From Acidobacteriota bacterium (GTDB lineage Bacteria > Acidobacteriota > Blastocatellia > Pyrinomonadales > Pyrinomonadaceae), in assembly GCA_003222895.1 (NCBI GenBank), contig QHXI01000082.1, forward strand, positions 1-33,800: 33,800 nucleotides of DNA, written 5' to 3'. Numbering within the stretch: position 1 is the stretch's first letter; every line of letters starts with the position of its first letter. Positions 21,594 through 24,770 of the stretch are shown here, one piece after another. The notes below the pieces were generated by a model. The model was not told the origin of the DNA. It did not search any database and saw only the letters and a program-made list of their open reading frames with translations. Position numbers and translations under genes: made by a program.

Positions 21594-21739
21594 GGGTCAG
21601 TGTGGCGCAAGTTTTTGACTGGCGTCGGATGAACAAGGCTTCACCCAAGCGTCACTGAAATCATGGGCAGTGACCCTGGTTTTGCCTGTTTGCAAACCGC
21701 CTCGGAATGAAACTTTGCTTCCTCAAATTGCGAGGATAG

Positions 21740-21886
21740 CTACCAGCGGTGCTCACCACAACTATGCTGCCCGCCCTGGTGCGAAAATGTATTCACGCAC
21801 GGCGAGCCACATTGCGGGCAAACGGAACTACATTCGGTGATGATCATATCCACTATCCGGTGGAAAAGCCTGGCTATCTTGCGCAT
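21740..21886 (-). CDS. 48-residue Cys/His-rich microprotein
   Basis: A small ORF I do not recognise. It begins with a basic amphipathic stretch (MRKIARLFHRIVDMIITE) and continues with cysteines at 19, 23, 26, 30 and 43 and histidines at 36, 41 and 46: C-x3-C-x2-C-x3-C-x12-C. The CPQCG knuckle looks like half of a zinc ribbon. AAGGGAGAG lies about 6 bases before the ATG, a strong Shine-Dalgarno. It stands alone on the minus strand in a 524-base gap between plus-strand genes. Metal binding is plausible; function is unknown. The small size means chance occurrence is not excluded. Confidence 0.5.
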   Translation of the reverse strand: MRKIARLFHRIVDMIITECSSVCPQCGSPCVNTFSHQGGQHSCGEHRW

Positions 21887-22117
21887 AGTTTTCTCTCCCT
21901 TTGAAGATTAATGATCGAGGGCCCAAAAAAAAAGTACACCCCCGGACGATGGTTAAAGCGAGGGCTTCAGATTACCCGAATTTTGGAACCAGGTGAACCC
22001 CTGACGGTTTTCCGGGGAGTTTGGGTAGGCTTTCACTAGCGAACTGAGACAAGCATTTTCCATCTCTGCTCAATGATGCTAATCTCCCCGCCTTAATCGA
22101 ACCTTGCGGAGGTCGTA
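21887..22117. other. Intergenic stretch between the microprotein and the 121-residue gene
   Basis: Contains an A9 run near 21926-21934 and a CCCCtgacggttttcCGGGG-like hairpin around 22002-22018. It must hold promoters for the two divergent genes. No consensus promoter or known RNA motif was recognised. The 21594-21739 side carries a degenerate inverted repeat (GGGTCAGTG at 21594, CAGTGACCC at 21668) after the tricorn stop. Confidence 0.4.
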
Positions 22118-22483
22118 ATGAATCGTGACGCGGCGACAACCGAACGACTGCGGACTTTGATTGGGAAACTGCAATCGCTCACCGAAGCCGGCGATCTGCA
22201 TTGGGAGCGGCAGGCAGGATCGGCGCATCGTTATGCTCGCTGGAACAACAACCTGCTGATTCTCGGGCCAGCGACGCCTTTGAACGAAACCAAAGTGCCG
22301 CGCTATTTGTTCATTACGCCATTTAATTCTCCGGACTGTATCGAAATCAATTCTGATGATGCCGATCTCGGTGCACAAGTAACGCAGCTCGTTAAGGAAG
22401 TCGAGAAAGTCAGCAAGGCTGAACCGCCAACCGATCCGTTTGGCGTCACTGAGCAGATGCTCGAACGTCTGGAAAGTATGTAA
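22118..22483 (+). CDS. Hypothetical protein, first gene of the DUF1003/NRAMP cluster
   Basis: A 121-residue soluble protein that I do not recognise. It has an N-terminal predicted helix (TTERLRTLIGKLQSLTEAG), a central mixed region with HWERQAGSAHRYARWNNNLLIL and VPRYLFITPFNSPDCIEINSD, and a C-terminal acidic helix ending MLERLESM. There is no signal peptide or membrane segment. GGAGG lies about 6 bases before the ATG. It is followed after 48 bases by the cNMP/DUF1003 gene on the same strand and is likely in the same operon, though nothing in the protein links it to metal transport. Confidence 0.7.
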   Translation: MNRDAATTERLRTLIGKLQSLTEAGDLHWERQAGSAHRYARWNNNLLILGPATPLNETKVPRYLFITPFNSPDCIEINSDDADLGAQVTQLVKEVEKVSKAEPPTDPFGVTEQMLERLESM

Positions 22484-22531
22484 TCTTCAAGCGTGCTTGC
22501 GCGCATATCTTCATAAGAGAAGGACGATTCA

Positions 22532-23422
22532 ATGGCAGAGCTAAACAATTTGAGCGAAGAGGCGCAGAGCCTCGCCCGCGTTCCCCTTTTCAAGCGGCTT
22601 GAGCCGCAGGAACTCGAGAAGCTGGCCGAGGAAATCGATCAGGTTAATTATCCGGCCGGCGAAACGATCTTTAACGAACATGACCGCGGCGACGCGCTCT
22701 ACATTTTGGAAGAAGGCTCGGTCCGCATCTGGGTTTACGACGAAGATGTGAAACCAGTAACGCTGGCTGAATTGAAGCCGGGCGATTTCTTTGGCGAGCT
22801 GGCTGTGCTGGATCGCGGCGAGAGATCGAGCAGCGCCACCGCGATTACCGACATTCATCTGCATCGTCTGAGCAGCGACGACTTTCAAAAGTTTCTGATC
22901 GAGCATCCCGATGCGTCCATCGATGTCATCTGTGAAATTGCGCAAAGGATGCGCCAGACAAACCTGCTGGTTTCGCAACGCGCGTCGCGCAATATCAACG
23001 TCGAGATGGAAGCCAAGTCGACGATCGGTCAGCGCATTGCGGACAAGGTCGCATCGTTTGGCGGTTCGTGGACATTCATCATCATTTACTTGACCTTCCT
23101 GGTTGCGTGGATGGCATTCAATACTTTTGTGCTGGTCCACTATGGGCGCGGCGAAGAGGGCGCGCAGTTCGATCCTTATCCCTACATTCTGCTCAATTTG
23201 ATGCTTTCAATGACGGCAGCTTTGCAGGCGCCGATCATCATGATGTCGCAGAACCGCGCGGCGGAAAAAGATCGACTCGCCGCAGAGCAGGATTTCAAAG
23301 TGAATCTGAAGAGCGAAATAATGCTCGAAGAATTGATCCGCAAACAGCGCGAGCGCGACGCGCAGATCGATCAGCTCAATAAGGCCCTCGCGGCATTAGG
23401 ACAAGGTAAGCCAACACAATAA
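22532..23422 (+). CDS. Cyclic nucleotide-binding domain fused to DUF1003 membrane protein
   Basis: A 296-residue protein. The N-terminal half is a CRP-like cyclic nucleotide-binding domain: PAGETIFNEHDRGDALYILEEG and the phosphate-binding cassette FGELAVLDRGERSSSATA (87-104) with E89 and R98 present. A linker helix (about 130-160) leads to DUF1003: GGSWTFIIIYLTFLVAW (178-194), a second membrane helix at about 217-233, then QAPIIMMSQNRAAEKDR and a C-terminal coiled coil. DUF1003 function is unknown. The architecture suggests a ligand-gated inner-membrane regulator or channel-like partner. The NRAMP-like gene starts 16 bases downstream. Confidence 0.92.
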   Translation: MAELNNLSEEAQSLARVPLFKRLEPQELEKLAEEIDQVNYPAGETIFNEHDRGDALYILEEGSVRIWVYDEDVKPVTLAELKPGDFFGELAVLDRGERSSSATAITDIHLHRLSSDDFQKFLIEHPDASIDVICEIAQRMRQTNLLVSQRASRNINVEMEAKSTIGQRIADKVASFGGSWTFIIIYLTFLVAWMAFNTFVLVHYGRGEEGAQFDPYPYILLNLMLSMTAALQAPIIMMSQNRAAEKDRLAAEQDFKVNLKSEIMLEELIRKQRERDAQIDQLNKALAALGQGKPTQ

Positions 23423-23438: not shown

Positions 23439-24770
23439 TTGAAGACCGAAGACCGGCTGAACATTTCCGGTGCGGAGTCTCATCGTGGCTCGCTCGAAGC
23501 CGCCATGATGCGCGAGCGGAATCCGGTCAAGCGGTTTTTCAAAATGCTGGGACCGGGACTTATCACCGGCGCTTCAGACGACGATCCTTCAGGCATTGGC
23601 ACCTACGCCGTTGCGGGTGCTTCACTTGGTTTCTCTACTTTATGGACCGCTCTCTTCAGCTTGCCGCTGATGATCGCGGTTCTGCTTACCTGCGCCAGGA
23701 TCGGGATGGTCAGCGGTGTCGGGTTAACTGCTGTCCTGCGCAGACACTATTCGCGGAATTTGTTGTATCTGACGGTAGGCGGATTGGTCGTCGCCAATAC
23801 CATCAACGTCGGCGCAGATATTGGAGCGATCGCCGCGGCGATCAATCTCCTCATCCCAGTGCCGGTGGCGGCGCTGATCGTGCCGATCGCTCTGATCATC
23901 CTCGCGGTGCAAATCTGGGGTTCGTACCGGCTGATTGCCAGGACGTTTAAATGGCTGACGGTCGCGCTGCTGGCTTATATTGGCGCTGCACTCTACGCAA
24001 AACCCGATGTGGTCGCGGTGCTCAAAGCGACGTTTATCCCACGACTCAGTTTTGATCCGAATTTTCTGGCGATGCTGGTAGCAATTCTCGGCACGACGAT
24101 TTCTCCCTATTTATTTTTTTGGCAGGCTAGTCAGGAAGTTGAGGAGGAAATCGGTTTTGGTCGCGTCACGCAGGCGCAGCGCCGCGGCGCAACGGATGCC
24201 GAGATGAAGTACGCGCGCTGGGATGTCTACATCGGAGGGTTCCTGTCGAACCTGGTGATGTACTTCATAATCCTGGCGACGGCGGCAACCTTATTCAAAG
24301 CCGGCCACACAAACATCCAGTCCGCTGCCGATGCAGCAGAGGCGCTGAGACCACTGGCTGGCCGCGGTGCAGAGATTCTCCTGGCTGTGGGTTTGATTGG
24401 CACGGGATTTTTGGCAGTTCCGATTCTTACGGGATCGAGCGCCTATGCCGTGACTGAAGCGTTCAAAGGAAGGTACGGGCTCAGTGAAAAATTTCGCGAC
24501 GCAAAATTGTTCTACGGAGTTATCATCGCCTCGACGTTGGTGGGGCTGCTGATAAACTTTGTCGGTATCAATCCGATCCGAGCGCTCTTTATGGCCGCAG
24601 TTATTAATGGCTTCCTGGCTCCGCCACTGCTCATGGTTATCATGCTCATTGCGAACAACCGGAAGGTCATGAAGGATCGGGTGAACGGTCGCTGGACCAA
24701 TATCTTCGGGTGGAGCACGACGCTGGTAATGTTCGTCGCCGCGGTTGCCTTAGTCTTAACCTGGAATTAA
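23439..24770 (+). CDS. NRAMP-like divalent metal transporter with non-canonical metal-site motifs
   Basis: A 443-residue polytopic inner-membrane protein of the NRAMP superfamily. The first helix carries LITGASDDDPSGIGTYAVAGA where canonical NRAMP proteins have DPGN. The helix corresponding to TM6 has TTISPYLFFWQASQEVEEE instead of the MPH motif. Such variants are common in bacteria and belong to a divergent branch, so substrate (Mn2+, Fe2+, Mg2+ or other) cannot be assumed. TTG at 23439 has GGGGA about 9 bases upstream; ATG at 23505 would start just before MRERNPVKRFFKMLGPG. The DUF1003 gene is 16 bases upstream and the barrel gene 28 bases downstream. Confidence 0.9.
   Translation: MKTEDRLNISGAESHRGSLEAAMMRERNPVKRFFKMLGPGLITGASDDDPSGIGTYAVAGASLGFSTLWTALFSLPLMIAVLLTCARIGMVSGVGLTAVLRRHYSRNLLYLTVGGLVVANTINVGADIGAIAAAINLLIPVPVAALIVPIALIILAVQIWGSYRLIARTFKWLTVALLAYIGAALYAKPDVVAVLKATFIPRLSFDPNFLAMLVAILGTTISPYLFFWQASQEVEEEIGFGRVTQAQRRGATDAEMKYARWDVYIGGFLSNLVMYFIILATAATLFKAGHTNIQSAADAAEALRPLAGRGAEILLAVGLIGTGFLAVPILTGSSAYAVTEAFKGRYGLSEKFRDAKLFYGVIIASTLVGLLINFVGINPIRALFMAAVINGFLAPPLLMVIMLIANNRKVMKDRVNGRWTNIFGWSTTLVMFVAAVALVLTWN

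Follow-up and report, generated by a model that had tools for sequence, protein, structure and literature searches.

A candidate lineage-restricted zinc-knuckle microprotein gene in a rearrangement-prone spacer of an Acidobacteriota genome

Between a tricorn-like protease gene and a DUF1003/Nramp operon, the stretch of Acidobacteriota DNA analyzed here (33,800 nucleotides in all, called the window) contains an ORF of 48 codons that is dense in cysteine and histidine, and the question it raises is whether this is the gene of a zinc-binding microprotein or an open frame that arose by chance. If the gene is real, it would encode a metal-folded microprotein with almost no relatives, and the locus could help to show how small structured proteins originate in bacterial spacers or travel through them; if it is not, the locus warns against calling a gene from a good Shine-Dalgarno site and a convincing cysteine pattern. 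The features concerned are these:

21594 to 22045, no strand: part of the spacer without a match in the other family genomes searched (spacer searches of family genomes and local comparisons)
21740 to 21886, minus strand: 48-aa Cys/His-rich ORF, candidate zinc-binding microprotein (translation, and a partner ORF in genome G043 with ligands in register)
21893 to 21901, minus strand: Shine-Dalgarno-like AAGGGAGAG, its GGAG ending 8 bases before the ATG of the 48-aa ORF
22046 to 22117, plus strand: upstream region of a 121-aa gene, partly common to G006 (from 22071) and more weakly to G002 (from 22046) and G004 (from 22056) (spacer searches and local comparisons)

The reading frame, its start site and its codon use

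Translation of the minus-strand ORF at 21740-21886 gives MRKIARLFHRIVDMIITECSSVCPQCGSPCVNTFSHQGGQHSCGEHRW followed by a stop codon, a product of 48 residues with five cysteines (at 19, 23, 26, 30 and 43) and four histidines (at 9, 36, 41 and 46), three of the latter within residues 19-48. This translation and the AAGGGAGAG site confirm that the ORF exists as originally described, i.e. 48 residues on the minus strand with five cysteines, several histidines and a Shine-Dalgarno sequence. An SD-like 4-mer lies upstream of 48 of the 886 ATGs in the window (5.4%) compared with 5 of the 17 larger ORFs examined there, whose start codons were assigned mechanically; the site thus carries roughly fivefold weight in favor of the ORF.

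Since the window holds 214 ORFs of 35-70 aa, the length of the frame is uninformative; its Cys+His fraction ranks second among these 214 and is mildly beyond chance. The C-x2-C-x3-C codon pattern is seen four times in the window against 1.88 expected, and because 14 of 100 shuffles reach four, the motif says little by itself. Neither a promoter-like nor a terminator-like sequence was matched near the ORF, where the chance expectation is only 0.5 and 0.8, respectively. The fold of the ORF transcript is no better than that of shuffled sequences (z of -0.53; 51 of 200 as good), and Rfam returned no match at gathering scores and one at chance level (E 3.5).

Synonymous codon choice, scored against 22 larger ORFs of the window, is as low in 0.4% of gene-like draws and as high in 25% of random non-coding draws; among real gene pieces, 2 of 161 score as low. 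A cruder overall codon score, which for this ORF is biased by its cysteine content, places it under all 163 gene pieces and under about 95% of the 214 short ORFs. The codon use looks non-coding, which argues against a long-resident gene and less so against a young or imported one. It is also what would be expected if the ORF were a product of chance in rapidly changing non-coding DNA at a site of rearrangement, either untranslated or translated without function, an explanation that we rate at somewhat under an even chance. A chance origin would fit the abundance of short open frames, two of which (51 and 56 aa) overlap the 48-aa ORF on the opposite strand, and the presence of several C-x2-C-x3-C codon patterns in the window; the SD-like site, the Cys/His density and an in-register partner in another genus argue against such an origin.

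A partner frame in another genus and the search for further members

A protein search of 97 related genomes gave matches at E <= 1 in 43, the ORF's own genome included, and the best match outside it is in G043, which belongs to the same family and to a different genus; its E-value is 0.0119 when one genome is counted and about 1.2 when all 97 are. This partner is a Cys/His-rich, free-standing ORF of 42 residues (L003:1489-1617, minus strand). Alignment yields 12 invariant columns that include all five cysteines, three of the four histidines and one glycine, with a single 1-residue gap between ligands, so that the two share the pattern C-x3-C-x2-C-x3-C-x5-H-x(1,2)-G-x-H-x-C-x2-H; overall identity is 29%, and the N-termini align poorly. 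The partner resembles the 48-aa ORF in its ATG start, its short free-standing frame and the register of five cysteines and three histidines, but its N-terminus is shorter and acidic, and its neighbors differ.

When the partner was shuffled 20,000 times, no shuffle reached the local alignment score of 67, the best being 57. Compared by blastp without composition adjustment, the two score 30 bits; the E-value is 0.91 in a search space of 1e9 and would rise to tens if every frame of 535 Mb (a rough size estimate for the 119 family genomes) were counted. With composition adjustment blastp gives no match at E <= 10. Order-5 Markov DNA, from a model trained on the loci collected here and the window, contained no full ligand pattern in 1,550 Mb, a result that by itself limits the rate to no more than about one per 535 Mb; a factorized estimate in which residue frequencies are multiplied (second Markov run, 1,100 Mb) gives 0.0003 such matches expected per 535 Mb, and in that run the five cysteines alone in register are expected 14 times per 535 Mb. 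Since the ligand pattern was fixed after the match had been seen and other gap placements are possible, we judge a fair chance of the G043 match to be nearer 0.001-0.01. One independent sequence, G043, has the ligands in register, a match that is rare by the factorized estimate and not significant by E-value.

At E <= 0.1 the partner itself has no match in the remaining six genomes of its genus. The gene downstream of it, which we take to be SIMPL-like, is matched in four of the seven genomes of that genus, G043 included, and beside it in the other three of these lie five short ORFs with four or more cysteines, none of which has the ligand pattern. Upstream of the partner, a 174-aa ORF (148 residues searched) matches only G043 itself among 59 genomes.

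A profile built from the two sequences, and so bound to match both of them, was searched against overlapping genome sets. At E <= 0.02 it matched 6 of 162 genomes of the class, including the two known members, and 19 of 396 of the phylum, including the ORF's own genome and not G043, with part of each genome's candidates scored; at E <= 0.005 it matched 1 of 93 and 9 of 299 genomes of two other classes, again with part of each genome's candidates scored in the set of 299. All new matches have E above 0.001 and the ones inspected are without the pattern, so that no third member was found among the matches examined in the class, the phylum and the two other classes. Inspection of weak matches by eye (19, a further 8 of which 6 were genomic and 2 viral, and another 6) found the ligand pattern kept only in G043. 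A looser pattern was run over 106 records (381,289 bases, many overlapping); apart from the two ORFs in their various copies it picked up a single long frame, in L031, which was judged unrelated.

Several candidates were set aside. A match in G006, of the same genus as the ORF (L004; E 0.017, 42% over 35 residues, CSRCPACGSP), and a partly similar one in G012 (L006; E 0.039) are each broken by an internal stop codon and are missing ligands. Two Paenibacillus loci on genome contigs are alike only in a PQCGSPCVN-like stretch and were rejected as chance, and viral contigs gave no match in one search and two matches of 10 and 12 residues in another, rejected on inspection. With phages and plasmids, tblastn gave best E-values of 2 and 0.8 for the 48-aa ORF and no match for the partner; the best E-values were 0.22 with PHROGs and 0.43 and 0.13 in PDB sequence searches. 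The titles and abstract openings of the papers found on bacterial small zinc proteins contain no description of the ORF. Another reading takes the two frames as members of a sparse family of free-standing zinc-finger microproteins with the shared pattern, distributed patchily across the genera of a single bacterial family, which arise or are carried in spacers that rearrange and which annotation has missed; we regard it as rather unlikely.

The spacer and its neighbors

The ORF is flanked by the tricorn-like protease gene (PD40, Peptidase_S41 and Tricorn_C1 domains) and by the 121-aa gene, which has no Pfam match and is followed in the window by a cNMP-binding/DUF1003 gene and then by Nramp. 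The placement first given, between the protease and the DUF1003/Nramp operon, therefore holds, with the 121-aa gene as the operon-side neighbor. A close tricorn gene (85-100% identical) is present in six of the seven genomes of the genus, the ORF's own included, while G003 has only copies of 37% identity or less, and the 121-aa gene is present in 8 of 60 genomes, again counting the ORF's own.

From the tricorn stop to the start of the 121-aa gene there are 524 bases in the window vs 195 in G006 and 233 in G002, the genes being adjacent in both. Similarity to G006 stops at the tricorn stop and restarts at 22071, and a laxer local comparison widens the shared region upstream of the 121-aa gene to 22046 (G002). 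When 119 family genomes were searched with the spacer (21594-22110), it matched, itself apart, only G006 and G004, in each case over the end that borders the 121-aa gene; in its own genome the spacer is present in one copy. A search for a mobile element at the spacer found only short repeats, and a plasmid search gave no match.

Searches of the other six genomes of the genus returned no orthologue of the ORF; the best match there is the interrupted one in G006, which lies on a different contig, and the same-genus matches are at chance level. In the syntenic loci of relatives the ORF has no match of note (E 1.5 or worse). Orthologues with a conserved frame in close relatives, by which a conserved bacterial small-protein gene would be recognized, were thus found in none of the six, and the spacer around the ORF is unmatched in the family genomes searched. 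The original prediction named a lack of cysteine conservation in close relatives as what would tell against it, and the present result comes near to that, the ORF not being found at all. A chance origin is consistent with a spacer that, except by the 121-aa gene, is unmatched in 118 other family genomes, and with the presence in relatives of Nramp or other sequence at its position, indicating that the spacer turns over quickly.

In four relatives (G001, G003, G004 and G020) Nramp lies on the upstream side of the 121-aa gene, divergent from it and no more than a few hundred bases from its start, whereas in the window Nramp (23439-24770) follows DUF1003 on the same strand. These differences in placement are rearrangement around the spacer of the ORF, and they put the spacer at a rearrangement site. 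The 121-aa protein precedes cNMP-binding/DUF1003 in the window (22118-23422), and the same holds for all seven other genomes in which it is present; the two form a conserved, uncharacterized pair.

The ORF had been proposed as a possible zinc-knuckle regulator or metal buffer related to the neighboring metal-transport genes. The two are close, as the ORF and the 121-aa gene diverge from starts 231 bases apart, but among the other genomes with the 121-aa gene DUF1003 lies beside it in 7/7 and Nramp in 4/7, loci that contain no sign of the ORF, and the ORF is on the strand opposite to the operon and points away from it. The proposed tie is unsupported, and we consider it very improbable. Least probable of all is that the ORF is a decayed remnant of the divergent Nramp gene or of another gene: in the four relatives Nramp does read in the direction of the ORF close to the start of the 121-aa gene, but outside the upstream region of that gene the spacer has no match to those loci better than E 1.2, and Pfam gave nothing better than E 0.25 for four further short ORFs in the spacer.

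The candidate microprotein and its likeness to known systems

The reading of the ORF as a candidate gene is favored by the in-register partner in G043, the SD-like site, the Cys+His rank and a weak zinc-ribbon match, and disfavored by its codon use, the lack of a same-genus orthologue, the non-significant E-values, a partner that is itself unconserved and a poor AlphaFold model. Between a real, young zinc-binding microprotein and a chance ORF the odds are about even, and a candidate lineage-restricted zinc-knuckle microprotein gene in a rearrangement-prone spacer, with a product predicted to bind zinc, is a reading that we hold tentatively, as close to an even proposition.

On this candidate reading, the 48 codons would be a lineage-restricted microprotein gene in a spacer prone to rearrangement. 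Residues 3-15 may form a basic amphipathic helix, residues 19-46 may fold round one zinc ion held by C23-x2-C26 together with H41-x-C43, and C19, C30, H36 and H46 could provide a second site. The zinc-folded knob and helix would then act as a small adaptor binding protein or nucleic acid, rather than buffering metal for the Nramp operon. Of the zinc-knuckle regulator or metal buffer first suggested on account of the nearby metal genes, a zinc-knuckle-like module remains plausible, as the ligand register recurs in G043, and the metal-transport tie is the part that lacks support. AlphaFold run on the single sequence places a helix at residues 3-15 in a model of poor confidence (pLDDT 56.4). A similar Cys/His arrangement with a GHxGxH element probably occurs in larger proteins.

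With the 48-aa protein as query, NCBIfam gave no match and Pfam listed only Zn_Ribbon_TF (PF08271, TFIIB zinc-binding), a weak likeness at residues 22-45 (E 0.032) whose 14.2 bits are under the curated cut-off of 29 for that family. The ORF likewise has no match to the Pfam and NCBIfam models of the Ruc/FmdB zinc-ribbon family, FmdB presumably being the family name attached to Ruc-type small zinc-ribbon proteins. Ruc (Rv0991c) is a small protein that binds one zinc through a zinc ribbon of about 50 residues with four cysteines, followed by a disordered tail (PMC7448276). Both are bacterial and have a cysteine cluster, but the 48-aa ORF is without a family match. Taxonomically restricted short genes of E. 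coli O157:H7 are like the 48-aa ORF in being short, missed by annotation and narrow in distribution, and, whereas the ORF is known from sequence alone, they had the backing of ribosome footprints (PMC4765031).
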